A DNA stretch of 64,000 nt, taken from contig QNQO01000519.1 of assembly GCA_003290165.1 (NCBI GenBank), positions 1 through 64,000 of the forward strand, read 5' to 3'. The notes under the pieces were generated by a model. The model was not told the DNA's origin. It did not search any database and saw nothing but the letters and a program-made list of their open reading frames with translations. The stretch comes from Berberis thunbergii. Lineage: Eukaryota; Streptophyta; Magnoliopsida; Ranunculales; Berberidaceae. The stretch's first letter is position 1; every line of letters begins with the position of its first letter. Both the position numbers and the translations under genes were made by a program. This document shows positions 6,815 to 62,684 of this stretch, piece after piece.

Positions 6815-6832
6815 TCCCCAGCAACGGCGCCA
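6815..6832 (-). other. Primer binding site of element A (tRNA-Asp type)
   Basis: Read on the minus strand, TGGCGCCGTTGCTGGGGA lies six bases inside the right LTR. It is complementary, with one mismatch, to the 3' end of plant tRNA-Asp, the primer typical of Athila/Tat-type elements. It fixes the transcription direction as minus. Confidence 0.85.
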
Positions 6833-6838
6833 AAAACT

Positions 6839-9071: not shown

Positions 9072-10429
9072 CTCCACCATCACCACGCACTACCACTTCT
9101 TCCATTGTCAATCATCAACACCCCGAACACCTAAAGGGTGATCAACACCTCCTTTTAAAAGATCAAAATTCACTCTCTTGCAACCACAAAAAGTCGTACC
9201 CCTCGTCCGCACACTAGGGCCAATAACCATATAGCCAATTAGTTGTAAGACTAAACACAGAAAACGACATACCAAACAAGTAAGGCGAGTTACTACTGTC
9301 CAAGATCCTCTACTTTGCAGAAAACAAACTGTATAACTCATCTTCAACAGCCCGCACCAGATTGACAACCAAGCTGAAAAACGTGTCACTGATCACCTTA
9401 ATCTCCCTCCACCAATTCTCAAGGAACCAAGGAACTTTAAATTCATGGTAAAACTAATGTCTAACCAGAAGAGAATACGTCTGAACTAAAAATCTTTTGT
9501 CGCCATACCTTTGCATAGTTTTAATCCCTCCAGAAGAGCCCCTGTTTTAGCCACATTATTCGAGCCCTCTCAAAAAAAAAGAATTGCTTAGCCCCAACAC
9601 AAGAACCATCCTTGTAACTTACAATTGCTCCTCCCAAATGCAATCTAAATGAGCCCACTCCCTTATTCTCCTCTCAAGCATTTTCTCAAACATGTTCCCT
9701 GCATCCACCATTCTCTTCTCCTTGCAAAACCCAAAAATCACCCCATTATACGTAAATGAATCCGGCCTCCACGTTTCCATCGCCACATACAGACCCTCTC
9801 TCACAGCGACCACCTATGTTTCTCTCCAGTGATCGATCCCTCCCTCACACACAACAACATCCATCGTCTTCTCTCTCTGCCACCAACTCCTTTTTCATCA
9901 CAATCAATAAACAATAAACAATTGAGAAGTACACAAAACACATATCTGAACACTTACAGATTCACCAAAATCAGATTCGAAGAGAAGATGTGAACCAACA
10001 CAACACAATCGCAGTTCATCTTGCAACAACACACACATCAGCACTCGCCAACAATGCTTGAGCAATCCACTGTCATCCTCTTCGCCTCCTTGCAAATCAC
10101 CGTTCAAAACTCCTCATCTTCTCGCCTGCTCCTCGCCAATTTCGTCTCACCATCAGCCGCCATTGAGAAAAAAAAATCGTGAAGAAGGGAAAAGGAAAAA
10201 GGAAGGAGAAAAAAAGGAGAGAAAATAAAAAAGAAATAGGGTTTTTCTCTTTATAAGGTGGGTGGCTATTCGCCCCCACCGAACTTTCGAATGCACCCAC
10301 CCTCTTTCACATAATAAAACCCTACTTATTAGTTTAATAAAATCCCAAATACAATTGGGTAACAACCCATCAACATTAGGGTTTACAAAAGAATTTTTTA
10401 TTTATTTATTTAATTAGGCGGGTATTTCA
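9072..10429 (+). repeat. Long gypsy-type LTR, right piece of the interrupted copy
   Basis: Continues the LTR that starts before position 1. From about 10160 it aligns with 43600-43966: a purine-rich run, CTTTATAAGGTGGGTGGCTA (a likely TATA region near 10250), GAATGCACCCACCCTCTTTCAC and a final AATTAGGCGGGTATTTCA. The part at about 9100-9800 is not in the other copy and includes a PPR-like fragment, so this copy has gained foreign sequence or comes from a divergent subfamily. Confidence 0.7.
9619..9813 (-). pseudogene. PPR-repeat fragment
   Basis: A 64-residue minus-strand frame contains PDSFTYNGVIFGFCKEKRM followed by DAGNMFEKMLERR. This fits one pentatricopeptide repeat (PD..TYN.LI.GFCKE.R..DA..LFE.ML). 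PPR proteins bind organellar RNA in tandem arrays of many repeats; one isolated repeat cannot be functional. It lies inside LTR sequence, so it is most likely a captured scrap of a host PPR gene. Confidence 0.55.
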
Positions 10430-34781: not shown

Positions 34782-34798
34782 CACTACACCAAAAACCC

Positions 34799-35093
34799 CC
34801 ATTAGCAACGGTTCTATACCGTGGGCGTAAGCCATTGCCACGGCTAAGAGCCGTGGACTACAGGGGCGTCGCGAAATCCTTTGTAACGGCTATAAACCGT
34901 TGCTAAAATTTTAGCAACGGTTTTATATTCAGGACGGTTGATGCTTTAGCCACGGTTCTAAACCGTTGCTAAACGTTTAGCAACGGTTTTAAGCCGTGGC
35001 AAGCATTAGCAACGGCTTAAAACCGTGGCCAGGCTTGCCACGGCTTAAAACCGTTGCTAAAATTTTAGCCACGGTTTTTAAGCCGTGGCTAGT

Positions 35094-35095
<2 letters not shown>
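34799..35095. repeat. Subterminal repeat array of CACTA 1, left
   Basis: At least ten imperfect copies, in both orientations, of a 15-20 bp unit such as GCAACGGTTTTAAGCCGTGG. Such arrays are transposase-binding sites in CACTA elements. Confidence 0.85.

Positions 35096-35136
<41 letters not shown>
35096..35136 (+). repeat. Poly(T) tract
   Basis: About 39 consecutive T residues directly after the subterminal array. Confidence 0.9.
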
Positions 35137-35138
<2 letters not shown>

Positions 35139-35702
35139 ATAATCCCTACAAAAACATTTTGATTCAAAACAAACAGAACCTTCTTATACATTAGCATTAC
35201 ATGTTTGTGTCCCAAAACATGAATGAAATGATAGAAAACCAGTGTTAGTTCAATTCATGTTAATTTTTCAAAGCAAATAATTAATCATTGCTCGATGTTT
35301 GTGTGATTTGGAACTAAACATCCACTCAATCCACACATCAAAGCTCACAAAAGTGAGTACAAAGTAGATCACTCCTGCTCCCAACCCAAAGTAGGGAAAG
35401 TCAACTATTATTGAACTATAATGAATTAAGTACTACTTCAAGAGTTACCATCTTTGAAACAGTCATTGCTGTCAAACAGAACCTTGGCTTTGGTGGCATC
35501 AGGTGCCAATGAGCTTGCATGCGAAACAGTCATTGCTGTCAAACAAATAGCGTAAAAAACTTGCAATGGTCCAAAATGTAGATCCATGATGACCAAGGAA
35601 AAGAGCCATTTATTAAAAAGATTAAAACAGGTCATATGTAGATGAAGTTTTCAACATAAATATTTAGAGAATATGTGCTCAAGACAGCCTAACAAGCAGC
35701 CA

Positions 35703-35903
35703 TTAATCCAAGCATCTTTCAGACACTGCTAATACGTGCTCAAGACAGCCTAACAAGCCTAGGAAAAGAAAGACCCATACAAACGAAAAGTCCACCTGCT
35801 CGACATGCTTCTTCACATAATTCAAGACCACTGTAGCTGAGGCATCATGATCTGCTATTCGTCCCAGGGAATTTTCTATCGGGAAATTGCGGAAATTATT
35901 CAA
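35703..35903 (-). pseudogene. Unidentified exon-like fragment in CACTA 1
   Basis: The frame starts NNFRNFPIENSLGRIADHD and runs to YVKKHVEQ, where a GTGGAC could be a donor. It looks like real coding sequence (mixed hydrophilic composition) but I do not recognise the gene. Confidence 0.3.
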
Positions 35904-37082
35904 ATCTGCACTTGCAAATTAGCTTTTTCAGAACAGTGGACAAAACTGCAATAAACAATATCAAACACCTTACACATTGATGCTTTTGCCATAAATGAAG
36001 ATAGAATTTGAAAAGACCGGTGAGCAAATGAAAGAGATTGGAAAGAACATGACGAGAAATGAACATAAAATAATTGACAACAATATTGTCTAGTCGAAGG
36101 TAAAATTTATTTTTGAGGAAAAATAATGGTGTTACCGTTTCTAAGAGTGAACAAAGGAAAACAAAATAGTTCTGTACATATTGAAATCTGTCATTATACA
36201 AAGATGCCTTTGTGATTATGTTGTTGAACTGTAGTAATAGGAAAGCCATGTGAACATCTTTGAACTGTAGTAAAAGGAAAGCCATGTGAACATCTTTCAT
36301 GATTTGGAATCTATTTTATGAACTAAGCATATTTAGGGAATGCATTAGTATCAAGTGGTTTGGATGCATGTTATTCAAAAAAAAAAAATTCAGTTCTAAG
36401 AGATCAATTTGAATTTTATAACCTATTTATATTTTAAGATTTTGAAAGAAATTTGAGATCCATGCCTCAGAGACTGTTTCTATCACATTCAACACATAAA
36501 AAAGACTTCCTACTGTTGCCTTTTTGAGTATTGGATGATCAATGTCCATCACTAGAAGATTAAAATAACACCAACTCAACACAACCTTAAGAAGTTTACA
36601 CCTGATCAAGTAACGTGAGGTTAAAATAGATTGATAAAAGGATAAGGCTCAAATGGCCATGGTCTCAGTCAATGTGGATATGATGTTCAGGATGGATGAA
36701 CTGCTTCCCTAAAATTTGAGATGTAACTGTCTGGTAAAGTGATAATATAACCCTTTAGCTAACTTACTTGAATATTTCTACACTACAACGTTAAAGCATG
36801 ACTTTACTTTATTTTACTCTTACTCTATATTGTTGAGTATTGGACAGAGAGGAACATGCGAATTATTACTTCCCACGAGGTCAAGGAAGTTTTGAAAATG
36901 GAAATACCACGCAGATTATCCAAACAAACTCTGTAACCTTGTTAACCAAGTTTGCAGCATAAAAAGCAAATTTACCATTTTCACATATGTCATCTTGTGC
37001 AGTTGTTTCAGCTCCCAAGCATTGACTTAAAGGGGCCTTAGTGTGAACCTTCAACCAAGAGAAATCAAATCAGGTAAATTCT

Positions 37083-37467
37083 CTACCAAGCTACTAAATC
37101 GATTACAAAAGACAATAGTCCTAACAGAGCACTAACCTCAACTGGCAGAGACTTTCCATCATTGGAAAATGACAGTCCTTGCAGACGTTGCATTGAATCA
37201 ATCAGCATCCCGGTTCTGAATGAATGCATAATCTTATACACCCTGGATGGAAATGTCTGGAAGTGGGGGAAAGAAATGAGAGAGGGTTTCCAGGAATATT
37301 CTCCAGAAGAATGGAAGACTTTAGCAATTAATTCAGTCTCTTTATAAGATAGTTTCTCTTTAAATGTGGGTCTCAGCACTGAATCATCTTTGACTTTGCT
37401 TCGAGGAATGAACCGTTCTATTGACATCTCAACATACTTAACTTCTGGTTTGCAGATATGTGGAATC
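37083..37467 (-). pseudogene. Unidentified conserved-looking exon in CACTA 1
   Basis: A long frame (over 120 codons) includes PHICKPEVKYVEMSIERFIP, ELIAKVFHSSGEYSWKPSLI and SFRTGMLIDSMQRLQG. Composition is typical of a real globular protein, and the frame stays open across more than 350 bp while the surroundings are stop-rich. I cannot name the family. It lies between the O-fucosyltransferase fragment and the left end, in the same direction as the other captured pieces. Confidence 0.45.
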
Positions 37468-38504
37468 TACAATTACAAAACTTAATTTTAGTACATAAAT
37501 ATTTATGTCAGGACCAAACATAATCTAGTTTCATGGTAGTTACCATCCTAGAACTAGAATGGAAATTAAAGCTACTCATCCCCCCATTATGCATGTGCTT
37601 CCTTATGGACTTGCTACTTGCTTGCTTTCGCATGTACCCCTTTAATTCCGTTCCTTCACATGCTAATACAAGTACTACATGTCAAGGAAACCATTTAAAC
37701 TAATCAAATTAAAATCGATTTTAAGATTGTTACGCTCAAACATATAATTAATAAATCCAAAAGAAGCAAACTATCTTCCAGCGCTTAAAATTTTTTTTTT
37801 AAAGGCTTGTTGTACTTTCTGTGACTTAAATCCAAAAGAATGTTTACATTAGCAAATAAGTACCTGCAAAACGGCTTGTTGTACTTTCTGTGACTGGCCT
37901 TTCAAAGTTTTTCCTGTCAAAGTTTCATAGCATAAATTCAGAAAAAATAACGATAACACAATCACATATGAAATGTATCCCTCTCAACTGAATCATAAGG
38001 AACTTAACATGGTAATACAACAGAACACTTTAGGAAAAGATTCCCATGACAATTAACATTGTACCTTAAGAAAGAAAAAGGAAAGAGATAAATTAGGGAT
38101 AGGGTAAGAGTCAAAGTTCCCTTCCCATGGAAACTATCATGTGATAATGTCTACTCTGAAACAGAGGCACACATGCAACCGAAGCACAAACAATTTAAGT
38201 TATTCTATCATTACATTAGCACACATTCACCTACTCCATATTTTTCAAACAAAAGATATGATGAATTCTCACTTTGAAAAGACCAACAAAAAAAAAACCA
38301 TATTTGAAAAACTAACAAAATGCACTTCCAGATGCAGCTTTTATATTAGCAAATTAAACTGAAATAAACATGTAGAAGAAAAGAAAAAATATAAAAATAA
38401 AAATAAATTAAATATTTTGTCTTTAAATCTGTGTGAGATGAAAAGTTTAGGGAGGAAACAAACAATATACCCGAGCTTTGGCCAATGAACTCAGTAGTAT
38501 TCTA

Positions 38505-38819
38505 TTGAAGACCAGCTTCGAAAATTCCTAACAGCTTTGGAAGCACTTGACAAATCCTTGAGAAGCTTCTTTATAACTTTAACATCATTAGCAAGAGCGG
38601 ATATAAAATGATCTTCATCGAAGACATCTGAAAAGTTGCTGCAGTTTCAAATTCAGTCTTTTTAGAGATTTAAATCTTCCTCACACTTTCTCAAATAACT
38701 AATAAGTATGACATGGAAAGATCCAAACCTTGAATCTTGCCAAAATGACCGTTTATCAAGTTCAGGAATGACGAGAGTGGCATTTATAATACGAGCAACA
38801 GCAACCATGTCACATATCT
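38505..38819 (-). pseudogene. O-fucosyltransferase family fragment captured by CACTA 1
   Basis: Two exon pieces on the minus strand. The first (about 38819-38729) reads CDMVAVARIINATLVIPELD then KRSFWQDS. The second (about 38645-38505) reads NFSDVFDEDHFISALANDVK then VIKKLLKDL and FRSWSS. Both are hallmark runs of plant GT106/O-fucosyltransferase-like proteins, which are Golgi type II glycosyltransferases of about 500-600 residues. Only around 80 residues are present. Upstream, 38839-38874 duplicates part of the first exon (period 57 bp). The N-terminal anchor and the rest of the catalytic domain are missing, so it is not functional. Confidence 0.85.
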
Positions 38820-39053
38820 GCAATTTAAACATGAGACAATTTATAATACGAGCAACAGCAACCATGTCACATATATGCCATGAGTTCTGCTCATATTTGT
38901 TCTTCTGCAAGTACAAGTACAAAACAAAAACTTCCCTATGAAATATCCATAACAAACAGCCATATCCACTGCATGAGTGCCCATATCTGTATAGAGCTGT
39001 GTCTAAATAAACTGGCATTCATGTTAAACTTGTATAATGAAACGGAGCTCCAC

Positions 39054-39112
39054 TAGCACTTGGTCTAGTGGTATGTTTCTCGCTTTGGGTGAGAGATTCC
39101 CTGGATGCCCCT
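39054..39112 (+). pseudogene. tRNA-Pro(UGG) relic lacking the T arm
   Basis: CTTGGTCTAGTGGTATG matches the D-arm/A-box of plant tRNA-Pro. TCTCGCTTTGGGTGAGAGA gives the anticodon stem-loop with anticodon TGG. GGATGCCCC matches the 3' acceptor side. About 15 bases containing the T arm and B box are absent, so it should not be transcribed or folded as a tRNA. Confidence 0.7.
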
Positions 39113-39374
39113 ATGGTAACATGAGAATTGTAACTATTCAATGAGCATTATGAAAGAAATCCAAACTATTCAATGAGAATTGTAACTGATCTTATTTAGT
39201 AGACATAGTGTTTACACAGATCTATATATGGCACCATGTAAGAAAAGAAATCCTGATATCCAAACTTCTGGAAGAAAAGAAAATCAAATTTTGTTTGTGT
39301 ATTAATCAAACAAATTATTGTTCTTTGCTATTGCTTGAACAATAAATGCTAGAATACACTTACGAACTTCTTAC

Positions 39375-40678
39375 CTGATTACTCATGTTATACAAGTAGC
39401 TAGTGGCGAACTTATCAAGATTTTGTGTAATTTCAGTTGCATCAACACCATTTTCCATGCTGTGCTCAGGTAAATGAACATCATCTAATACCAGACGATA
39501 TTTCAATGTTGCCAGTTGCCTCATTTCTGTGTATATCTGAAGTAAAGCATTTTAAAATCAGTTCACTGCGCTAGCATGATTTGAACCATTTCTGAAGTTC
39601 ATTTATGATAGCAAGCAAATTGAGTAATTTGAATGCTAAAGAAATCCAATGAATGATAGCATCAACCCATATAATAAGTTAAAACATCAAAAGGTAATAA
39701 TTCAAATTTTAGCTACCTTCCAATCATATGATGACATGGCTGAATGGTTGTAGAAAGCAGAGTTAAGATACTCAGTAACATGTAATTTTATGTCAATATA
39801 CTTGAATGGAAGTCGCAAAGGTTTCAGTTGTAGATACCAAGAGAGATTTCGTACACCAGTCTGATGCAAAAGTTCACAAGAATACCCTTGTTATAGAGGA
39901 ATATGGCACCAGTATAGCAAAAATTGATTGTAGTGATTCAAGGCATAAAAAATTACCTTTCTTGGGTTTACTTGCACAGATTCTTTTAAGTGGGTAGAAT
40001 GTACATGAAGCCGGAGATCAATCTCAATATCCTTGCAAAGAGGTGTAATAATTTCCTGCATTTAAAGCAAGAAGTTAATTGATCCTTGAACAATTATCAG
40101 CATATTACTAATCTAACAAAAAACTTAACTTTAGAACTATACTTGAAAATTTCAAACCGAATCCTCGATTGATAATATTAAGTCATACAACAGGGTGAAA
40201 TTCAATCATAGAAAGTTACATACATTTTTCAAAGCATTCTCTATTTCTTCCTCGTGTAAAAGCAGGGTGAACTTGCCTACATGACCAAGCTTTAGAAACC
40301 ACAGCCCATCACAGAATGCATCAAGAAGTGACCTGCAATTCATTAGCTTATTCACTGCACCTCATGTCAAGACTTCACTTGTTAAGTTGATCCATGTTTT
40401 AAATTCATTGCAGTATTATAGTAGTGATAACTCCAAAAGCAGATCCCAGCATGCATAACATATGATATAAAATTCTAAATTGGTTGTCAGACTTACTGCA
40501 ACCATGTAAACTTGTGTATATCCATATAAACCATGGAGAACCAAGTTCCCATCATTTCTTTTCTCCAATACAAGAAACTGCAATCTGTCACCTCCTCCAC
40601 CATACTCTGGAAATCAGCAATGATATCAAACTTGGATATTAGCTTCTTCATCCTGGAGTAGTTGATGTCCACGTGACC
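39375..40678 (-). pseudogene. WASH complex SWIP (KIAA1033-like) homologue, captured exons
   Basis: Five minus-strand exon pieces lie in their natural order with introns. About 40678-40499: SRMKKLISKFDIIADFQSMV and FLYWRKEMMGTW. About 40333-40224: SLLDAFCDGLWFLKLG. About 40057-39956: ITPLCKDIEIDLRLHVHSTH. About 39861-39718: RNLSWYLQLKPLRLPFKYID, then HVTEYLNSAFYN. About 39540-39375: IYTEMRQLATLKYRL, DDVHLPEHSMENGVD and a final YLYNMSNQ. These match the middle of SWIP (WASH subunit 4): PLC..IE.DLRLH.H; LKP.R....FIDIK.HVE.YLN..FYN; YAEMR.LA..KY.L......LP...LEQGLDVLEI. SWIP is a WASH complex subunit that acts on endosomes. The N- and C-terminal thirds are missing. Splice signals look largely intact (for example CAG|GTAAGA at 39375). 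The pieces probably came from one genomic segment of a full gene elsewhere. Confidence 0.8.
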
Positions 40679-41061
40679 CTGGTACAGAGGGTTTCCGAGA
40701 TATAAAATAGAAGAAAAACATACTGAAATGTGTCACAGTTGTGACTTGGAATCGAGAATGGAAGAACAAATTGAAATGCAAGTTCTATTGAATAAGAAAA
40801 GGGAAACATAAACTCTATTGCTCAGATCGATCTACAGATCCAGCCCTCAATTACAATGCTCTTCTTCCTCTCTGTTTCTTCTTCTTCTCTATTTAACTAC
40901 AGAATCACAACAAAATTTCAAATGGAGTCCAATAAGAGTTTTACAATGAGAATTGTAACTGATCTTTCGCCGTCTCATCTGATCAAAGCCAATTCCATCA
41001 TTTCACAGTTGAAAAAATAAAATAAAATAAAATAAAAAATTGAATTAAAAGATGGCTCAAA

Positions 41062-41504
41062 TCAATAACAAGAAAGGAAATCATAGTTGACGAATAAAAC
41101 CCTAAATTGAAGGAAAAAGTTTAGAGATGGCCAAACCCCATGGTGATTGGAAGATGAAGAGAAACTCCTCGATTGAAGGCTGCGAAGGTGGAGGAGGATC
41201 TCGAAGCTCGAATGGCTAGATGGCCAAACCCCATCGCGTTTTGTTGCTTGTACAAACACAGACAGCTTGGGTTGCTCGACTTCTCCCTCTCTCTTTCCTT
41301 CTCCTTCTCCTTCTCTCTTTCCCTCTCCTTGAAATTTTAGGGTTTTCACAAAGGGTTGAAAAGGGGGAGATGGAGAAGCAAAGGGTTGAGAAAAGGGGGA
41401 GATGGAGCGGGAACACAGGAAGCAAATTTTTTTCCCAAAATTTCGCCCGCCAGAATTCGACCTATTTCTCCACAGGTCCACGTGCAACACACGTGCACAT
41501 TTGC
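41062..41504 (-). other. Leader region of CACTA 1, shared with CACTA 2
   Basis: The minus strand from about 41500 reads GTGTGTTGCACGTGGA, GGCGGGCGAAATTTT, then CTCCATCTCCCCC and TTTCAACCCTTTG. It aligns with the plus strand of CACTA 2 at about 53700-53850. Overlapping frames occur on both strands and none is convincing. Position and conservation suggest the element's own 5' end, possibly promoter and untranslated leader. Confidence 0.55.
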
Positions 41505-41695
41505 AACGGTTTTGAGCCGTGGGTCACTATAACTACGGTTTTTAGCCGTGGCAAACACACCAACGGTTTAGAACCGTGGCCAAGCCTTTTTTAGCCACGG
41601 TTTTAAGCCGTTGGGCACTATAGCCACGGTTTTTAGCCGTGGCAAACACACCAACGGCTTAAAACCGTGGCCACCCCTGTGTAGCTAATCAGCCA
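41505..41695. repeat. Subterminal repeat array of CACTA 1, right
   Basis: Alternating AACGGTTTTGAGCCGTGGG-type units in both orientations, the counterpart of 34799-35095. Confidence 0.85.
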
Positions 41696-41708
41696 TTTTG
41701 GTGTAGTG

Positions 41709-47060: not shown

Positions 47061-49261
47061 TCACAATGGACTTGAAGCTGCATCCACAGTGTTGTCATTC
47101 TTTACCCTCATAGCTTCTAAATCAATTTGCTTCTGATGAGCAACATCGTAGGTTGCATGAAGACTGAAAAGTGCATAGTAAACCAACATCACCAAAGTGC
47201 AGATCCCAAATCTCACAAAAGCTTGGTAACCTAATGCTCCCATGAGAAACAAGTTTATGCCAATCGATAATGATGGCAGCCATGGGACAAAAGGAACACC
47301 CCACACCTTCGGTGCACGCCGCTGAGGAAGGAAGACTGCAATCCCCAATGTTCCCGAAAACCATATCGGTACAGTTACTGCATGCACTATCCACCCATTC
47401 GGGTTCAAATTATAGTAAACACTAGTTCCAACTGAAGAACCTATTATCATGAACAAGAATAGCAGTAGTTTGCGAACATCGGAATTGGAACTAACTCCAT
47501 TTACATAGTACCGTCTCATAAGCAATGCGACTGCCATCAGCATGAATATGAAGAGTGTACTAATGGAGGAAACGCTTGACAAAACGTCCAAACTTGAGAA
47601 AAGAGCTACGCATGCAGCAGTGAGGGAAACCAAGAGCATTGCGTTGATGGGTGTTCCAGTTTTAGGATGAACACGTGCAAACCAAGGTGGAATCATGTGC
47701 GAACGAGCAATCTGTGTGGTGTACCGTCCTTGCCCAAGTGTCCCGATCATTAACCCCATAGTCATCCCTTTAATTGCACCTATGGCCACTATATACTTAG
47801 CCCATTTCATTCCGACGTGCTCAAACGCCACGGAAAATGCAGCATTCACATCCAATTGAGTGTACTTTTGCAACATACTGAGTGACAGTGCCATTATGCA
47901 GTAAACCACTGTAATCATTAACATGGAACCAACCAAACCAATTGGTATGTCCTTGGATGGTTGCTTAGTTTCTTCCGCCAATGTTGCCACCATGTCGAAT
48001 CCTGTGGGGCATATAAGTCTATCAATGATTGGCTGGTTGAAATCAGAATATAATTTTTATATTGAAAATGTATTAGTGAGGAGGAGAATATAGGCGGCAA
48101 GGAATGTGATTTTTCGAAATTTCAAAGAATAATTTGTAAGAGTTTAAAATGTTTAACTTTTGATAACTTCAAAATTATATCTTGAAATCAATTTAACAAA
48201 ATATTTCTTAAAATCAATTTACCGAAATTTACCTCAAAAAACGAAATCACATATAGGTAGGTACATGGTGAGATTTAGAACTTGTTGAAAACAGGACAGT
48301 GTTGTTGTATGCATTGCATACCTGTGTAAGCCCAAAAGAGGACAGCTGCAGCTTTGAAGGTCCCTCCAACTCCATAGGGAAAGAAAGGAGATAAATTGGC
48401 TGTATCAGCCATGACAAAACCCGCAATAACCACAAACAATATGACCAGAATACTAAGCATTGAAGTGACCCAATTGACCAAGGAAGCATTCATTGTACCA
48501 AACATTGGTAAAGCAGAAGTGATGAGTAGTACCGCAACTGCAATGGGATCCAATTGATTGAACCCTTCACCGAAACCCTTAACATGAATTCTTAAAGCAT
48601 TTGGTTGGAGATTAATGAGAGTGGCAAAGTAAGAAGTCCAAGACCTGGCAAGTCCAGCAGCACCCACTACTGCTTCCAGTAATATATTCCCAGCAGCTAT
48701 GAATGCAATGAAATCACCCAATTCGATTCTAAGATAGGAAAAAGAACCACCAGCAACGGGGATTTCGACAGCGAATTCAGTGTAACAAAAGACGGAACAC
48801 AAAGCAGAAAGACCCGAAATGGCATAAGAGAGTACAATGGAAGATCCAGCGTGGTTATGAGCTTCTTGACCTGTCAAAACAAATACGCCAGTACCAACAA
48901 CAGAACCAAAACTAAGCCAAATAAGATCCCACCATGTGAGGCAACGCTTCATGGGGTTCTCACTCTCTTTGGCAAGAGTGCTGAGTTCATTTGAATCGGT
49001 AGAACGGTGGAGGAATCGGTCTTTGAATCGAGAAGGTGTTTGGGAGAGAGCAGATGTATAAGAAGACCATGATTGGAAGGATTGTTCTGGGAACATCTCT
49101 TGTTTGCTCCATCTCCAATAACTCTTCTTCTCCATGTTGCTGTTGGGATCATAGACTACATCATCATCTGAATCTGCCATGCTTTCTTGTTTCTGTGCCA
49201 CAAGAGGAGAGTACGGGATTTGAGATAAAGAGGAGGAGTTGTGCATGATTAGGAATCCCAC
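47061..49261 (-). CDS. CAT5: Cationic amino acid transporter (plant CAT5/CAT8 type)
   Basis: A membrane permease of the APC superfamily that moves lysine, arginine, histidine and similar amino acids across the plasma or internal membranes. There are two exons: 49261-48322 and 48001-47061, with a 320-bp intron bounded by GT (CAG|GTATGC) and AG (CCACAG). Joined, they give 626 residues with an open frame throughout. N-terminal KSYWRWSKQEMFPEQSFQSW, then RCLTWWDLIWLSFGSVVGTG, FCYTEFAVEIPVAGGSFSYL, LAEETKQPSKDIPIGLVGSM, and near the end KVWGVPFVPWLPSLSIGIN are hallmarks of plant CATs, with about 14 membrane segments. The N-terminus and an ALSLSMLQKYTQLD segment are closest in my memory to Arabidopsis CAT5/CAT8 rather than CAT1; the exact orthologue is uncertain. 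A second Met at 49180 (MADSDDD) may be the true start, since family members usually lack the extra 27 residues. It is the only intact gene in the window. Confidence 0.95.
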
Positions 49262-49700
49262 TAGAATCAGAGAGACTCCTTATTTTCAAAAATCTATTTA
49301 GATGGAAAGAAAGAAAGAAAAACTCTACCGTCATCTTCTTTTCAACGCTCAAATCAATTGTTATTATTGTTGCGTGCATCTCCACAAGTGTATCAACGAA
49401 CGAATTTGGTTCAAAAGTGGTTTCTCAATCAGCAACGACCCCACTTCTTTTGGATCTTACACATTACTAACATTGAAATGAATTGACGTGCTTTTCGTGT
49501 CTAAATGCATTTCACCTTATCCTCGAATGAATTGACGTGCTTCTTGTGTCTAAATGCATTCTTACGATACAACGCAGCCACTCTTTTGACATTATAGATT
49601 TTATTGTCCCGCACAATCAAATGAAATTTTTTTTTTACTTGCTAAAGCACCCCAGCAATTTAAGTCATTATTTCTCTCGTTTCTCTCACCTCTCTTTTCA
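49262..49700 (-). promoter_or_regulatory. Upstream region of the transporter gene
   Basis: About 440 bp of AT-rich non-coding sequence directly upstream of the gene. It has a near-repeated phrase (AATGAATTGACGTGCTT, near 49479 and 49525). No definite TATA box or factor site could be assigned. Confidence 0.4.
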
Positions 49701-49703
49701 AGA

Positions 49704-49705
49704 AT

Positions 49706-49743
<38 letters not shown>

Positions 49744-52799: not shown

Positions 52800-53495
52800 T
52801 TTGTTGGGATCATTTTATACACTCACGCACCTACATCTTTTGCTCCCACACCAACGCACAAATTTTCAAAGAAACACACGAAATTTCGAGGAGAAAAGAA
52901 GAAGCGTCCCTTTTCTTCCCAGTTTCCCCTTTCGTTAGTCTAGTTGTTTGTTAATCTTTCTTCTTCTTCCCTTCATCTCCTTCAAAATTTGATTGTATGA
53001 AGATTAATAACAATTGCAGACATTTATACAGATTTATGAAATATTTTATTTTTTTCCCTATATTGAGAATGCAAATGGGGTTTGAAGGACCTCTTAACTT
53101 CTATATTAATGAAAAAGAAGAGGACTCGAATACAATATCCCTAGAGGGAAAAAAATACCACTATTTCACTAGCATTGGGAAGTTAAAAGTTAACTTTTTA
53201 TTTGTTTCGAAGGGAATTCATCCATGCTCAATGAACTTTTTTGTTCCATTTCTAAGTTCGAGAGGATCTCCGAGGAAATAGTCTAAAATATTGGTTCCAA
53301 GTTTTTGAAAACTTTTTTTGTAGGCAATTCTTTTGCATTATCTTTACTAGGAAGACTTGTGTAACGACCACATTTTTTTTACTATAAAAATAAACTTTAT
53401 AGTTTATTTTGCGCCCCTACTTAAAATGGTTAGTTTACCGCAAGAAAGTATCTAAAATAAAAAAAGGGATTAGTTTATAATTTAATGGAAGCATG
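52800..53495. other. No gene seen
   Basis: A short plus-strand frame (52997-53281) is not recognised. Otherwise nothing. Confidence 0.45.
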
Positions 53496-53519
53496 CACTA
53501 CACCAAAAGGCCTGTTTAG

Positions 53520-53700
53520 CTACACGGCTCTAAACCGTTGATTTATTTGCAACGGCCAAAAACCGTGGCTTTAATGGCCAACGGCCTAAAACCGTGGCTA
53601 AAAAAAAGGCTTGGCCACGTTTCTAAACAGTTGGTGTGTTTGCCACGGCTAAAAACCGTGGCTATAGTGCCCAACGGCTTAAAACCGTTGCTAAATTGCA
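53520..53700. repeat. Subterminal repeat array of CACTA 2, left
   Basis: Units such as GCAACGGCCAAAAACCGTGG and its inverse are repeated about eight times. Confidence 0.85.
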
Positions 53701-55350
53701 TGTGTGTTGCACGTGGATGTGTGGAGAAGTAAGTCGATTTCTCGCGGGCGAAATTTTACGAAAAAAAATTGCTTCCCGCTTTGCAATCCCGCTCCATTTC
53801 CCCCCAACTCTGCACTTTTCAACCCTTTGTTTCAAACCCTAAAATTTGTTCCATCTCCCCACAGATCTCCCGAAAGCACACACTGATTTCCCGAAACCCT
53901 AAAATTTCACGGTTGCGAAAAAAATTTGCGTTTCGTCTTTACTGCTTCCGCATTCGCTTTCCTCAACGTGGTTTCAAAGTAAGTTGCTTTCTGGGTTTCA
54001 AGTTTGAGTTTTCTAAGTTCTTGTTTCTTTAGGGTTTCATGCTTTTGGTTCAATTTGGGTTTCTTGAGATAAAATTGGTATTTTAAAATCGATATGGGTT
54101 TTGATTTTGATTCTGTTTTTTGTTGATTTGGGGTTGTCTATTTTAGTGAAATCGATATGGGTTTTGTGTTTTGAAAGATTTTTGCAAAGAATCATGAAGA
54201 TCCAAGTGAGAAAGAGAACGAATCCCCAAAAGGAAAAAAATTTTTGTGAGAAATAAATGGAAATCCAGAGTGAGATTGTTTTGTTAGGAGTTGTAGGAGA
54301 TTCGACCACTAATGGTTATTTTTTTTAAATTCCATGAGATCCGATTGATATCTAAGGGATTTTTTTGTGTTTATTTGAGCTTTTCTTCTACTTCTGTCCT
54401 TCTATGTGCTTTGCTTTTTTTAGTTCATGAAATGAAGATAGGAAGAACCAGATTTCTTTGTACCCAATTCACCTTTTGCTTTCTTCTTTTATCCTCTTTT
54501 ACTCACTTTGATTGCTTTTTTAGTTGTTTTCATTCTCTGGGTATCTCTCGTTTATTTCCCAAAACATTCCTTTGAAAGGAGGAGAGACAGACAATGTAAG
54601 CGAGTGGGGAGAAAGAGAGAGCGAGAGATCTGCCAAGACAACTTAATTTTGTATTTTCTCTATCCATCTTTCTTTATAAAAAGCCAATTTACCTTTTTTA
54701 GTTTCATTTTCCTCTGTTTTCTGAGCCCACAGTCATGATTTTTGCTCAAATGGTTTGTTTTCTTTTCTCTTGTTGAAGGTGGTGAAGAGAACTTCACCAA
54801 AATGTCATTTTTCAGAAGGTTTTGTTTGATCATTTGTGAGCCCTTGTAATGGAAAAAGCTCAAGAAGTGATGAAACGAGGTTCAAGTTCGGGTCGGGTCA
54901 TCTTCCCCACAAAGAAACATATGAAGCAATCATGTTTTGATTCTAAAATTCTCAGAGAGAAACCCAAACTAACTCAGCATTATTTATTATTATCTGTCTT
55001 CTTCTAAGTAATCATATCTTCTATCTTGGGTTGTGTAGGTGTTTTTATTGTTATATTCTCTTATTTATTTTTTTGGTTGTATTAGTAGCTTTGAATGGTG
55101 ATGTGGGTGTTTTGGAGAGATCGAAGAAAGATAAAGATAGAGGTTCTAGAGTGAATTTGAGCAGCCAAATGGGTGGTGGTTGGTCTGAAGGCGAAGGGGA
55201 AGACGAGGAGGAGCTTCCCTTATCTTCGCCGCCACGCAATAAGAACTTTTTACTTATTTTATTTCATGTTAAGTATTGATTAATAAGGATTTGAATATGT
55301 TTTATGGCTTAATTTTAATGTGGATTAACTGTTTGCTTGTGTTGATCCAG
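53701..55350 (+). other. Leader region of CACTA 2, with unidentified exon-like pieces
   Basis: 53700-53850 is homologous to CACTA 1 (41500-41340, minus). TTTCAAAGTAAGTTGC near 53973 contains a donor-like AG|GTAAGT-type site. An acidic piece near 55160-55230 (SEGEGEDEEELPLSS) might be a captured exon of an unknown gene. Otherwise no recognisable coding sequence. Confidence 0.45.
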
Positions 55351-56600
55351 AACCTGGGAGACATTTCCGGTTCTTCTAGTCCTATATACAGCGTGGGTTT
55401 CGCCCTTTGAATTCGGGTTCCTTGACATACCGGACAGAGCTCTAACGATTACCGATAACATTGTTAATGTTTTCTTTTTCATAGACATCGTCCTCACATT
55501 CTTTGTAGCTTACCTTGACAAGAATACTTACCTACTTGTCGATGATCATAAAGATATTGCTAAGAAGTACGCAAGTACATGGTTGGTTTTTGATGTCATA
55601 TCCACAATCCCCAAAGAACTGTCTATGAAGATATTACCCAGGAGTCTCCAAACGTATGGCCTGTTTAACATGCTTAGTTTATGGCGAGTCCGAAGAATTA
55701 GTGTTTTGTTTGCTAGGTAAGACCTGAGCATTTTATTTCCACTTTCCAATTGGTCTATATGAAATATTATACTTACCTATTTCACTTCTCATTTGACAGA
55801 TTAGAGAAAGATAGGAACTTCAACTATTGTTGGGTTCGAGTTGTGAAGCTCATTGTTGTAAGTTTCTATGTGAAGAATTCCATTGTTTTCACAATAGGTA
55901 GGGTTTTATTAGCAATAGGTCTCTGACTTGGTTGAATTGATCTTGTAGGTTGTTCTATTTTATGTTCACTGTGCTAGTTGTTTCTACAATTTTCTTACGG
56001 ATCATTAGCCCGACCATTCAAAGACATGGATTGCTACATACATGCAAGACTACATTACTGCAGACGTTTGGTCCGTATACAAAACAACCTTTTACTTTGC
56101 TATCACTACGGTTACAACTACGGGCTATGGTGATTTGCACCCTGTCAATTCGTGGGAGATGGTTTTTGACATCTTCTTTATGCTCTTGAACCTTGGATTG
56201 AGTGCATATCTTATTGGGAACATGAGCAATTTGATCGTCCATGGAACCAGTCAAACTAGGAAATTTGTGAGAACTTATCTCGTAATTCTTGACTATGTTT
56301 TTTTTCTGTGCTATAGAATTATTTTTTCATACCATGATGGTATTATTCATTTATGTCCTGTGCCTGGGACGGAATTATAGAGAGGTACAATTCAAGCAGC
56401 CTCAAATTTTGCTCGTAGGAACAAACTCCCGGTCCGGTTGTAAGACCAGATGCTTGCACACTTGTGTTTGAAATGCAGAACAGATTCATAAGGGCTGCAA
56501 CAGCAAGAGACGCTTGACTCCCTCCCTAAAGCCATCCGGTCAAGCATTTCACATTTTCTCTTCTATTCTCTTATTGACAAGGCATACCTGTTCCGTGGGG
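55351..56600 (+). pseudogene. AKT1-like Shaker potassium channel, captured and broken
   Basis: Four exon pieces with introns: 55351-55716, 55800-55857, 55949-56266 and 56381-56600. They cover S1 (TWETFPVLLVLYTAWVSPFE), S2/S3, S4 (LWRVRRISVLFARLEKDRN), the pore with TTVTTTGYGDLHPVN (the GYGD selectivity filter) and S6 into the C-linker (TIQAASNFARRNK, GLQQQETLDSLPKAIRSSIS, AYLFRG). The sequence is closer to AKT1 than KAT1 (SPFEFGFL, YGLFNML). Three in-frame stops break it: one after the pore-proximal loop in exon 3 and two in exon 4. The N-terminus, cyclic-nucleotide-binding, ankyrin and KHA domains are missing. AKT1 takes up potassium at the plasma membrane. This copy cannot. Confidence 0.92.
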
Positions 56601-57786
56601 ATGAAGTGAGTTAATAGAGCTTACTTTTTTTTTTTGTGGATTTCAAAGTTTTTTTTTTTTTTTAATTTTTCAATATTTTTACTAGCTTTCTACTTTTGCT
56701 TGCAAAGGGTGACATTACTGACTTGGCTGTGAGTTCAAACAACGCTTGGGTGGTATTTTTTTTAAGTACTTTATTTGAAATGGGTTGTGTTAATAATTCA
56801 GTTCTTCTTCTTCTAAATTCTCTAAACTGGGGTTCTCTTATAGGTCTATAATGAGCATTATAGAAATGGTTGCGGTTAGTTTTCATATGGTCAGAATTCA
56901 ACATAAAATAACTAGTAATGTTGATTAACTTTTCGATGTACTGTTGCCTCATTGTTTTTCCGAAATTCAAGTTTTCTTTGATTTTAAATTAGGTATTGTT
57001 CACAATTTGCAGATCAATGCATGCAATGGGATGAAATGTGGATCAACATTTATAGGCCCCAACTCACCTAACAAGCCTGCAATTTGGACTGAGAATTGGA
57101 CCTCATTGTATCTTTTCCATCCTAACTCACTATTAAATTTCAGTATGGTTTTTTGCATTAATGTGAATAATAAAGCAGTTATTTGTTATTTCCTTTGAAG
57201 CTACCAAGCATTCGGCGGATGAATTTTCGCTCTTAGGTTGTAGCAGATATATTTATGTGCACTAATTCACATTTTTTCACTGTGTTTTCATGACAACCTG
57301 TAATTTTCACATATTTATGAATTTTCACATATTTCATTTGCAAGCAGAGAAGAGGATGAACTGAAGAAGAAGAGAAGCTCGAATTGAAGAAGGTAATCGA
57401 CCCATCGAAGAAGACGACGACTAAATTTGTTTGAGAGGAGAAGACGACCATCGAAGATCCAACTCCAAGCTCTATTCTGTTTCTGTGCTGTAAATTCTAT
57501 AAGCTCTGTTCTATTTCTATTTTTGTAAACTTTCTCCTCCCAAAACACTTCAGTCTGTTCCTCCTCCTTCTCCCAATAAACAAATTAAACTCCAACACTT
57601 CAATCTGTTCTGTATTGGTCATCTTTTCTTGTTTGTTTTTTTTGTTTTAATTGCTTCTTCTAATTATACAGTTATACTTCTTCATCTTCTTCTAATTATG
57701 CACTTCTAATTAATTTTTTGATTAAAATATATATATGATTCCATGTTTTATTCATAAAACTTAAAACTTAACATGTTTTGTCTGAT
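56601..57786 (+). other. CACTA 2 interior without recognised fragments
   Basis: Only short frames and T-rich tracts. A Glu/Lys-rich piece near 57345-57420 is low complexity. Confidence 0.45.
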
Positions 57787-58217
57787 AAAACTGCTTATGG
57801 CACATTGGCGGAGCTCTTGGAGGTCAACACTTGGGATCAACTTGGCATCCATGACAAACTTGTAAGCAACCAAAACCAAATCAAAAAACCAACCATGGAG
57901 TCTTGGTTTTTGTTACCTTCATTTGCTTGACAAAGTGAGGAAATCTGTGCAGGTGGGTTTGTTGAATGTGGATGGATATTACAACTATCTACTGACCTTC
58001 ATAGACAAAGTAGTGGATGATGGGTTTATCAAGCCTTCCCAGCGCCAAATAATTGCCTCTGCACCAAATGAAAAAGAACTTGTTGAGAAGCTTGAGGTGT
58101 GAATTAATGATTACCATTGTTGTTTTGTTGGTTTTTTAGTGTTTGTTTTTATTTGGGTTCAATGATATTGTTTTGTTTTTGCTTTGATTGTAGGCATACG
58201 TGCCTGTACATGACTAA
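57787..58217 (+). pseudogene. LOG (cytokinin riboside monophosphate phosphoribohydrolase) 3' fragment
   Basis: Three exons: 57787-57861, 57953-58096 and 58194-58217 (with TAA). They read [39 protein letters not shown], then [20 protein letters not shown] and AYVPVHD. This is the C-terminal half of LOG enzymes, which release active cytokinin bases in the cytosol. The motif GGYGTLEE appears as TAYGTLAE: both the first Gly and the catalytic-region Glu are changed, and the PGGXGT motif is cut at its start. The frame is open and splice sites are good (CTT|GTAAGC, TGCAG|GTGGGT, GAG|GTGTGA, TGTAG|GCATAC), so it could be spliced into a chimeric message, but not as an active LOG. Confidence 0.9.
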
Positions 58218-58480
58218 TAGGTAACTAATCTATACTTCAAATTACAATTCACTCAACTCATTCAATTCAATCAAATTTCATGACTTCACATGCTCAAATC
58301 TATTTTCCTTTGTTTTTTGTAACTCATCTGCATACATGCCAGTATGTATATTCACTATTCCGTTGCATAACTTTTAGATGTTATGCACTTCTATTTATTG
58401 AAGCTTTAGCCTATCTTCTCAAATATGTCCAATTAGATGTGGGAAACAAGTTTTCAATTTTATGTCTGTATTTACTGCAG

Positions 58481-58552
58481 TGACCTTGCTCAGAATCAAC
58501 TCACTGGTGAGATTCCAAGGCTAATCTATTGGAATGAAGTTCTTCAGTATCT
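58481..58552 (+). pseudogene. ERECTA-type LRR exon fragment
   Basis: A 72-bp piece directly after a CTGCAG acceptor reads DLAQNQLTGEIPRLIYWNEV then LQYL, identical or nearly so to the ERECTA LRR segment. 72 bp is the size of single-LRR exons in ERECTA genes. The following donor reads ATGAGT instead of GTGAGT, so splicing there is probably lost. ERECTA is a plasma-membrane receptor kinase. One LRR is present here. Confidence 0.85.
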
Positions 58553-58678
58553 ATGAGTATTCATCCATCACTTCTAGTAACTCTTAAACTATGTTTTCTG
58601 TTTAACTGAAATATTACTGTTAAGTTTGATCTTTAGTAGTCTTTTTATGCTAAAAGATAACGTATTTGCATTCTTATA

Positions 58679-58706
58679 CACTACACCAAAAGGCCTATTT
58701 AGCTAC
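58679..58706 (+). repeat. Internal CACTA 5' terminus
   Basis: CACTACACCAAAAGGCCTAT followed by TTAGCTAC repeats the first 28 bases of CACTA 2 (53496) with one change. No subterminal array follows. Its flanking base triplet ATA does not match the triplet after 62681 (ATG). Confidence 0.88.
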
Positions 58707-58792
58707 TAATACTACCAGGGCATTCACTGGTCTTTAATATTACTGTTTTTGGTTTTTTGTATGGGGAAGCCAAGGCATTCACTGGCCTTTAT

Positions 58793-58939
58793 ATGTACTA
58801 CCACCACTGCTGTTGCTGGTTCTTCTGGGTTTTCTTCAGCTGTCAAGAAACCTAAACTGTCTCAGACTACAAATTCACATACTTCAACTTCTAATACTAC
58901 TCCCCCTAGAAGCTTAGATACTAGCTCTAGCCACCAAGG
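58793..58939 (+). pseudogene. Ser/Thr-rich exon-like piece, unidentified
   Basis: The frame reads SSGFSSAVKKPKLSQTTNSH and SNTTPPRSLDTSSSHQ, ending at CCAAG|GTATGTT, a good donor. I do not recognise the gene. It might belong with the following TGA9 fragment, but I cannot show that. Confidence 0.35.
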
Positions 58940-59120
58940 TATGTTAAGATTCTTCTCTAGCTCTTTATTGGTTGTGAGTTCATAGATCAAAACACTTCAA
59001 ATGGTGTTTTTTTATTTATTTTTTATTTGTGATTTTATCAAATTCTAAAAGATTTTCAGTGGGCATCTCTCCTATGATCTTGTAGATCAATGGGTATTTT
59101 TTTTATTATTATTAAATCAG

Positions 59121-59216
59121 TCATCAACAAGGATCTGCAGCCTATGATTTTGGTGAGCTAGAAGAGGCAATTGTGCTGCAAGGAGTTAAGTTTGGAAATG
59201 ATGAATACAAGAAAAG
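59121..59216 (+). pseudogene. TGA9-type bZIP factor exon fragment
   Basis: After an ATCAG acceptor the frame reads HQQGSAAYDFGELEEAIVLQ then GVKFGNDEYKK, closely matching the N-terminal segment of TGA9 (GSAFDFGELEEAIVLQGVKYRNEE). It ends near AAAA|GTGGTAAG. TGA9 is a nuclear bZIP factor of anther development. The bZIP and DOG1-like domains are absent. Confidence 0.82.
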
Positions 59217-60760
<1,544 letters not shown>

Positions 60761-61024
60761 TAGATGTACACAAATCAATACATAAAGGCCACATGTGTGT
60801 TAACCAAGTTCTTGACTTATTCTTTTCTTTTCATAATTATGTAAACCAAAAACTAGTAAGCATAATGTAAGTATCAGTGGTTGTATGAAAAATTGCTCAA
60901 AAAAGAAATTGCAGTCTTGTAATCTTTGCAATTGGAATCTGTTGCATATTGAAGCTTTGAGTAAATTAAGTAGGTCTTTTGTTGAATTTCAGCTGTTGAT
61001 AGCATTTCTAATAACCAGCTTCTG

Positions 61025-61351
61025 ATGGTTCTTTTTACTAAGGAGGATCTGGACTTCTCAGAGTCATATGGATATTTTCAATTCCCATCTGATTATTTGT
61101 TGGGTTGTTTATCAATAGTGACGTTGAAATTATCAGGTTCTACGTTAATATTTTATAGTACTTTCACTGGTCTAGGATCCCTTAAGACTCTTGTTCTTAC
61201 AAATGCTTTAATCAATGAGAAAACCATCCAAACTGTCCTGGATAATTGTCTATGTCTTGAGGTTTTGGAATTATATAAGTGTCAGGGCCTATTTAATCTG
61301 AATGTTTATGCTCAGAGGCTGAAGAGATTTCAGACATTTGTTTTTATATAA
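61025..61351 (+). pseudogene. F-box/LRR protein fragment
   Basis: The 108-codon frame has CLSIVTLKLSGSTLIFYSTF, GLGSLKTLVLTNALINEKTI, TVLDNCLCLEVLELYKCQGL and NVYAQRLKRFQTF. These are consecutive leucine-rich repeats in the style of plant F-box/RNI/FBD proteins (LK.L.L..C......L...L.LK.L.L). The F-box and FBD are not present. A short piece (TATAAGTGTCAGGGCC) is duplicated directly after (61275 and 61346). Alternatively an LRR part of another RNI-fold protein. Confidence 0.75.
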
Positions 61352-61649
61352 GTGTCAGGGCCCATTTTCTAGGGCATTTGTTTTTGGTTGATGCTTTTGT
61401 TGTACAGTTTGACTGTGTTTATATGTTTTATTAGGAAATGAAATTTTGTATGCTAAGACATGACAAAGTAGGACAGCAGGACAACTGATATGTTTTCTGT
61501 GTTTATATGTTTCATTTGGAAATATAAATGGCTCCACTTGTAAATGATGACTGGCATTATTAATTTCAGGGAAGCAGGACAACTTAACTTTTTTTTTTTT
61601 TTTTCAAATATGTGAATTTATCAAATGAATACTTTGATATTCTTTCCTT

Positions 61650-61791
61650 TTGTTTCTGTATAGTGGCATCATAACAAATCTTACGCATGTATTTTCTTTT
61701 TATTTTTGGCTGGAAACACTCTTTTATAGAGTTCCTCCTGGTGCTATGGAAGTTTATAGAAAATTTGTAGAGGAATTTTGGTCTCAGTACG
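61650..61791 (+). pseudogene. Unidentified exon-like piece before the AGT2 fragment
   Basis: The frame includes PGAMEVYRKFVEEFWSQYE and ends at GAG|GTAATG, a good donor. It reads like a helical globular domain. I cannot assign it. Confidence 0.4.
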
Positions 61792-61900
61792 AGGTAATGA
61801 TTTTGCATTCTTACCTGTTTTTTCAAATGATATGTCTTGCTAGCATGATAGATGTACAAGGATATGTACTCTTTCAAAAGGAATTACATGATATGTTTAG

Positions 61901-62095
61901 GGTATTGGAAATGGCATTCCGCTTGGTGCTATTGTTACAACCCCTGAGATTGCACAGGTCTTGACGCATCGTAGTTACTTCAACACCTTTGGTGGAAATC
62001 CCGTATGCACAGCTGCTGACCATGCAGTTCTGAAAGTAATTGAGAAAAGAAAAGCTCCAGGAGGATGCAATGGACTACACAATGTCGAATTGTAA
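61901..62095 (+). pseudogene. AGT2-like alanine-glyoxylate aminotransferase fragment
   Basis: After the acceptor ATGTTTAG the frame reads [40 protein letters not shown] and [15 protein letters not shown]. This matches the region of class III aminotransferases of the AGT2 family just after the PLP-binding lysine motif (G.P.GAVVTT.EIA.VL....[10 protein letters not shown]). AGT2 enzymes are mitochondrial, PLP-dependent and over 450 residues long. About 55 residues are here, ending in a short unrelated tail and TAA at 62095. It is the last captured piece before the right end. Confidence 0.85.
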
Positions 62096-62339
62096 ATGTT
62101 GTTGTTTCTGCTGTAATGAATTGTGAATGGTCTAAATTTCTGCTGTAATGAATTGTAAATGTTGCTGCTGTAATGAATTGCTTGAAAGCAATTGTTGGAA
62201 TTTGCTGATCAGAGGTTGTAAATGTTGTTTTTAAATTTAATAAAAAGTCATATTAAATTTTATTTACTTGATGCACATGCTAAATTATACTTACCTATAA
62301 GATGTAATCAAAAGTCATTTGATAGCAACAAAAAATAAA
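62096..62339 (+). repeat. AATTGTAAATGTTG/CTGCTGTAATGAATTG repeats near the CACTA 2 right end
   Basis: The words GCTGTAATGAATTG and TTGTAAATGTTG alternate about three times between 62089 and 62180. It could serve as 3' UTR of a chimeric transcript; no poly(A) site was identified. Confidence 0.6.
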
Positions 62340-62660
62340 TTATTGCAACGGCTTAAAACCGTGGCTAAGACTGGCCACGAATTAAAACCGTGGCTAAAAC
62401 TTTGGCAACGGCTTAGAACCGTGGCTAGGCCTTGCAACGGTTTTAAGCCGTGGCTATTCCTGGCCACGGCTTAAAACCGTGGCTAACATGTTTGCAACGG
62501 TTTATAACCGTGGCTAAATCATCAATCGTCCTCGGCTTAAAACCGTGGCTAACAGTTTTGCCATGGTTTTTAGCCGTTACTGGGGATTTAGCGACGCCTC
62601 TACAACCCACGGCTCTAAGCCGTGACAATGGGTTACCCCCACGGTTTAAAACCGTTGCTA
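62340..62660. repeat. Subterminal repeat array of CACTA 2, right
   Basis: At least ten units of GCAACGGTTTTAAGCCGTGG type. It corresponds to the left array of CACTA 1 read on the other strand, including the GTAACGGCT and GGCGTCGC words. Confidence 0.85.
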
Positions 62661-62684
62661 ATGGGTATTTTTGGTGTAGTGATG

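Follow-up and report, generated by a model that had tools for sequence, protein, structure and literature searches.

We have analyzed a stretch of 64,000 nucleotides from Berberis thunbergii (contig QNQO01000519.1, positions 1 to 64,000; called the window below), and in particular a transposable element of 9186 bp at positions 53496-62681. This is a non-autonomous CACTA (En/Spm) element carrying pieces of host genes, i.e., a Pack-CACTA element, and we think it was probably assembled from older elements of the same kind.

Anatomy and cargo of the element

The left flank ends in GCATG and is followed by CACTACACCAAAA, beginning at 53496; at the right border TTTTTGGTGTAGTG ends at 62681 and is followed by the flank ATGATA. 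The 13 bp of CACTACACCAAAA are exactly common to both ends as terminal inverted repeats (TIRs), and beyond them the outer ends diverge into different subtypes. The trinucleotide ATG is duplicated on either side as the target site duplication (TSD). A subterminal repeat motif occurs six times in the first 400-bp bin and 12 times in the last 386-bp bin, with none in any bin between. With TIRs starting CACTA, a 3-bp TSD and subterminal arrays at both ends, this is a member of the CACTA (En/Spm) group. The features are as follows, LRR denoting leucine-rich repeat.

53496..62681, plus strand: whole Pack-CACTA element (TIRs, ATG TSD, allelic and partial copies genome-wide)
53493..53495: left copy of the ATG TSD (flank sequence)
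62682..62684: right copy of the ATG TSD (flank sequence)
53496..53508, plus strand: left TIR, 13 bp, exact match to the right TIR
62669..62681, minus strand: right TIR, 13 bp
53509..53700, borders approximate: left subterminal repeat array, GCCACGG / AACCGTGGC type (motif counts and self-matches)
62343..62668, borders approximate: right subterminal repeat array (motif counts and self-matches)
55349..56605, plus strand: AKT1 K+ channel fragment with introns (voltage sensor 55349-55717, pore 56009-56266)
56708..56752, plus strand: exon-like piece (AG/GT borders)
57013..57111, plus strand: beta-galactosidase 16 (BGAL16) exon piece, GH35 (protein matches)
57790..58096, plus strand: LOG-family enzyme, two exon pieces and an intron (Pfam, protein matches, splice borders)
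58482..58553, plus strand: ERECTA/ERL LRR exon piece (protein match)
58679..58706, plus strand: putative fossil internal left end, without subterminal array (27 of 28 bases identical to 53496-53523)
58812..58937, plus strand: LRP1 (LATERAL ROOT PRIMORDIUM 1) exon piece (protein match)
59131..59205, plus strand: TGA9-type bZIP N-terminal exon piece (protein match)
59504..59545, plus strand: exon-like piece with AG/GT borders (splice borders)
59919..60757, plus strand: RAB2 (RABB1), two exon pieces and an intron (Pfam, protein match)
61010..61345, plus strand: LRR piece, F-box/FBD or AtMIF1 type (Pfam)
61725..61793, plus strand: exon-like piece (no alignment to AGT2)
61889..62681, plus strand: right-end module with an AGT2-homolog exon (61901-62053), common to differently composed elements

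The longest stop-to-stop open reading frame (ORF) is 124 amino acids, among 117 ORFs of at least 36 amino acids, and no transposase domain was found in the 20 of these stretches that were scanned with Pfam. The scanned stretches thus hold no transposase of its own, host gene fragments are present, and several copies lie at different sites, which makes this a Pack-CACTA. The first-pass annotation, made from the letters of the window, had proposed a single transposase-less CACTA element of the Pack-CACTA type with matching ends, an ATG duplication and many donors. That description holds, with borders, TIRs and TSD exact at 53496 and 62681.

Protein and domain matches support at least nine putative donors: AKT1, BGAL16, LOG, ERECTA/ERL, LRP1, a TGA9-type bZIP, RAB2, an F-box/FBD-type LRR protein and AGT2. 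The AKT1 piece matches the PDB entry for AKT1 with an E-value of 1.2e-46 and its pore matches PF07885 at 8.6e-12; it has an in-frame stop at 56006. We take 56522-56605 to be the cyclic-nucleotide region; the ORF at 56472-56606, in a frame other than that of the AKT1 piece, gave no Pfam match. The BGAL16 exon (E-value 2.6e-12, 27/33 identities) scored only weakly in Pfam and in another scan. The LOG-family piece matches At2g37210 at 6.5e-17, a protein that is not labelled LOG in the search output and which we take to be one. A chain labelled LONELY GUY scores 0.0042, and the first LOG exon falls below the Pfam cut-off. In the ERECTA-family search a single stretch passes alone only in the ERL1/ERL2 rows, the top row and several others being different LRR kinases that sum many weak repeats; ERECTA and ERL are not distinguishable for this piece. 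The LRP1 piece has a best E-value of 4.0e-6 (26/42 identities), and that at 59131-59205 matches a bZIP protein with a DOG1 domain at 4.8e-4 (24/29), TGA9 being the name we presume for it. The Rab2 piece scores 5.4e-25, the LRR piece 2.8e-8 against PF23622 (with no match to an F-box domain in the stretches scanned with Pfam) and the AGT2 exon 2.8e-21, with 80% identity.

Three exon-like pieces were matched to no gene by the searches. That at 56708-56752, without a Pfam match, may be a BRWD-type WD40 piece, an unconfirmed assignment. For that at 59504-59545, the stretch 59439-59561 in another frame had no Pfam match. The piece at 61725-61793, whose acceptor site is damaged in this copy, was considered as an AGT2 exon and rejected, as it gave no alignment to AGT2.

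At most of the listed borders exons start after AG and stop at GT. Since introns with GT-AG sites were kept, genomic DNA rather than cDNA was captured, as the first-pass annotation had also concluded. Its AKT1-like, LOG, ERECTA, Rab2, F-box/LRR and AGT2-like fragments are each backed by protein or Pfam matches and are not random. The stretch that it called TGA9 does contain the bZIP piece, but holds two donors, the LRP1 part having been mislabelled. Its figure of seven or more donors was right as to multiplicity but too low, the BGAL16 exon having been missed.

Copies of the element and their shared modules

The genome (2.24 Gb in 11,732 contigs) was searched for copies, as the annotation had suggested, and all copy counts are lower bounds. 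The whole element gave 73 matches among the best 24 of 13,252 candidates, comprising an allelic copy and many further ones. Over the first 8.5 kb compared, the allele on contig C8219 shows 99.6% identity, and its 600-bp left flank is 100% identical. Comparison of 21 left flanks gave seven allelic pairs and seven singles, and hence at least 14 insertion sites with the left module in common, that of the present element (C519) among them. Matching 3-bp TSDs were found at five of the six distinct sites for which both ends are in hand: C519 (ATG), C5076 (ATA), C6663 (TAT; C198 is its allele), C3045 (TGG) and C233 (TAT).

Distances among copies are star-like: 2.6-8.0% for the AKT1 part (15 copies), 1.5-3.0% for the BGAL part (11), 4.6-8.9% for the left end (14), 2.4-4.5% for the LRP1 part (6) and 2.4-3.6% for the Rab2 part (5). 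The inner branches of the trees are short and mostly weakly supported. From this pattern we infer a probable burst of transposition. Transposase_21 is abundant in the genome, at no fewer than 150 loci (the best 150 of 7809 candidates); in many of these the open frame runs to 700-859 amino acids.

From copy to copy some modules are retained and others replaced, so that modules, mostly 92-99% identical, occur in differing combinations. C1 and C1042 have 2 kb in common at 97% that is absent from the window copy, C1 and C7876 share 340 bp at 99%, and C7327 and C3045 share 2.6 kb at 95%. The middle of C8787 is held in common with C7876, and one stretch with C1260 at 97%. In C826 a C1042-like middle is joined to the same AGT2 right-end module, starting at element position 8394. 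C7671 and C390 have the AKT1 module and the right end in common with the element. In a scan of ten ORFs from sister copies, XRN, receptor-like kinase, beta-galactosidase GHD and DOG1 domains passed the cut-off; a second kinase match fell below it (9e-4) and five ORFs gave nothing usable. Four deletion junctions (C5076 twice, C6663 and C427) have BLAST overlaps of 5, 2, 2 and 4 bp.

A 921-bp Rab2 stretch and a 221-bp AGT2 stretch each match at least 40 places, alleles counted apart (the best 40 of 297 and of 407 candidates, respectively). The Rab2 places examined (C10608, C457, C5494, C839) and the AGT2 place C826 are all copies of the element. Because these stretches are so widespread and the modules recur in differing combinations, the pieces were probably not captured singly by this element. 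The earlier picture of seven or more donors in one element is therefore sound as to their number, but their piece-by-piece capture by this element is improbable.

Two candidate donors were rejected. C7671/C390, 96% identical to the AKT1 piece, was set aside since C390 has the family right end, with a further match to the element at 8394-9082. C10608, a split match to Rab2, shares element positions 6094-8394, including the LRR piece and the next exon piece.

Internal ends and neighboring elements

The element contains a second left end at 58679-58706, in the same orientation as the outer one. It matches at 27/28 bases, compared with a maximum of 17/28 in 40 shuffles. This region is spanned by seven of the 14 sites (C519, C427, C9468, C7876, C8787, C1 and C6663), in all of which the upstream CTTATA is identical, with one further base changed in C9468 and C6663; C5076 and C25 lack the region. 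Because this left end survives, the outer ends probably derive from different parent elements.

A different internal end is present in C427, at element position 8523 within the AGT2 exon. Here the terminal CA is lost and one base beyond is changed, and about 0.5 kb of array and new leader follows. C7846, an allele of C427, also matches at this second left end. Family ends in tandem, same-orientation arrangement lie about 0.6 kb apart in C233/C6889 and about 2.9 kb apart in C1260. In C198 another element is nested in the copy and is absent from the allele C6663 (99.5% identical over 6.5 kb), which suggests recent activity.

Growth by tandem fusion has been described for Pack-TYPE elements, in which neighboring insertions are moved as one and the inner TIRs are deleted or mutated (Gisby and Catoni 2022, PMC8903248, in the part covered here). 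Deleted or mutated inner ends with conserved outer ends are found both at 58679-58706 and at position 8523 of C427, and the two inner ends look like fossils of element-element fusion.

Other arrangements were seen among the copies. The nested element of C198 has the right-end type of a second Pack-CACTA in the window. In C1758, around position 2100, a right end is inverted relative to the remainder of the copy, as though two elements had met head to head. C9468 and C953 have unrelated sequence after element position 7361, whose translated ORFs are retroelement-like by eye.

Elsewhere in the window the following element was found.

34782..41708, minus strand: second Pack-CACTA, same end type, TTC TSD (ends, TSD, Pfam)

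Three of its ten scanned ORFs match WASH complex subunit 7 (PF14744), which we take to be WASHC4/SWIP, and two match O-fucosyltransferase (PF10250). When donors of the 53496-62681 element were sought elsewhere in the window, the only matches lay inside this second element, plus one of 31 bp at 49703-49733. A cationic amino acid transporter gene lies at 47061-49279 on the minus strand; its top match is from Kingdonia uniflora (75% identity), with Protea and Macleaya also among the top matches, which points to a host among the early-diverging eudicots. Very similar proline/histidine-rich ORFs, judged by eye, are repeated at 1018-1756 and 7928-8690.

Origin and fate of the element

We consider it probable that older gene-carrying elements fused one after another to give this Pack-CACTA, with deletions at microhomologies contributing, and that it was moved in trans. 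Older members of the family would acquire stretches of host genes from genomic DNA, together with their introns, and two or more such elements would come close together in the same orientation. A transposase could then pair one element's left end with its neighbor's right end, so that the whole stretch would move as one and the inner ends would persist as damaged fossils. The modules would be trimmed and reshuffled by internal deletions at sites of microhomology, of the kind seen in interrupted gap repair. A CACTA transposase encoded elsewhere in the genome would move the products in a burst, the cargo being passenger DNA without detectable coding constraint. The proposal draws on the anatomy, the TSD, the nine donors, the kept introns, the copies, the sharing of modules, the internal ends, the tandem neighbors and the neutral decay of the cargo; the order of events, the pairing of ends, the source of the transposase and the burst are the conjectural parts.

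Several observations weigh against this reading. In C233 the sequence to the left of 58679 continues into other sequence at a CTTATACA microhomology, and because of this microhomology template switching could explain the junction without fusion. The internal end at 58679-58706 is nonfunctional in its present form because it has no subterminal array, and no free-standing parent element was seen that begins at 58679 and is bordered by host DNA. C8787, the sixth site with both ends in hand, has no matching TSD. At two further junctions, in C427 and C6663, the overlap is about 30 bp and falls in local repeats, which is not microhomology. No donor locus was found, the examined Rab2 and AGT2 places all being element copies, and other places scored could be donors. 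No autonomous element with these ends could be identified among the Transposase_21 matches.

The strongest rival is separate uptake of every piece by template switching in post-excision gap repair of the Rubin and Levy type, the internal left end being filler copied from another element. The microhomology junctions in C5076, C6663, C427 and C233 would fit, as would the Rab2 stretch of C10608, which is larger than that of the window element, as if later trimmed. However, C427 has a second left end complete with array in its interior, one right-end module is common to elements with different middles, and tandem neighbors in the same orientation exist. We therefore regard separate uptake as unlikely.

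Could the cargo instead be one or more functional chimeric genes kept by selection? Splice sites are kept, and on wheat chromosome 3B 19 captured CACTA genes are reported, in the part of the source covered, to be transcribed and under selection (PMC4290129). We counted derived changes against the per-column consensus, treating copies as independent, which the star tree nearly allows. The nonsynonymous/synonymous ratio relative to neutral was 1.10 for the AKT1 sensor (15 copies, 100 vs 36, 11 stops), 1.22 for the AKT1 pore (14 copies, 3 stops), 1.35 for LOG (8 copies, 2 stops), 0.94 for Rab2 (9 copies, 4 stops), 0.77 for the LRR (6 copies, no stop) and 2.37 for AGT2 (4 copies, 13 changes, no stop). 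Given these six ratios, and stops in four of the segments, the pieces show no sign of coding constraint since their capture. These ratios, with the in-frame stop in AKT1 and the lack of any ORF above 124 amino acids, lead us to reject a functional gene as highly improbable. That the assembly falsely joined two elements, as the different outer subtypes might hint, is next to impossible given the same structure on the allelic contig C8219, the recurrence in unlinked copies of stretches across several inner borders, and the intact TSD.

Pack-CACTA and Pack-TYPE transposons are reportedly the subject of work by Catoni in 2019. The comparisons that follow are with the parts of each source covered here. 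The Pack-CACTA / Pack-TYPE elements of PMC8903248 resemble the present one in their CACTA ends, TSD, lack of transposase, gene pieces from several loci and tandem fusion with damaged inner TIRs; it differs in having at least nine donors in 9.2 kb, a readable inner end and two fusion scars across sister copies. Soybean Tgm-Express1 (PMC1947982) is likewise a CACTA element with unrelated host gene pieces that kept introns and splice sites. Its 5.7 kb hold pieces from five donors and its chimeric transcripts are proven, compared with at least nine donors in the present element. The Tpn1 family of Ipomoea (PMC5105172) is also a large CACTA family, nearly all non-autonomous, with host genic interiors and conserved ends, but in another host, and module-level reshuffling is not described in the passages covered. 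On wheat 3B captured segments were apparently exchanged between CACTA families; 145 genes in 140 capture events imply mostly one gene per event, and most of the captured genes tested were under purifying selection (PMC4290129), whereas none was detected in our six segments. For named CACTA elements we found no donor count above five in the literature covered, which did not include the supplementary per-element loci of PMC8903248, and no record is claimed. The element is thus ordinary in kind, gene capture by CACTA elements being known and the published tandem-fusion model fitting it, with fusion fossils that are unusually clear.

More generally, the odds seem to us about even that donor number grows mainly by fusion of loaded elements, with pooled, amplified modules of gene scrap being recombined by CACTA ends like cassettes. 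If so, nine or more donors could accumulate in a single element with no need for nine separate captures. Within one family the inner left ends occur in two states, with the tip kept and the array lost or with the tip damaged and the array kept, and there are also tandem same-orientation neighbors, a nested insertion that only one of two alleles has and many different combinations of modules. The tandem-fusion model is therefore directly testable by a genome-wide module network, which would let single captures be separated from mergers. Readable fusion scars are useful for this, although gene capture and the tandem-fusion model have already been published.

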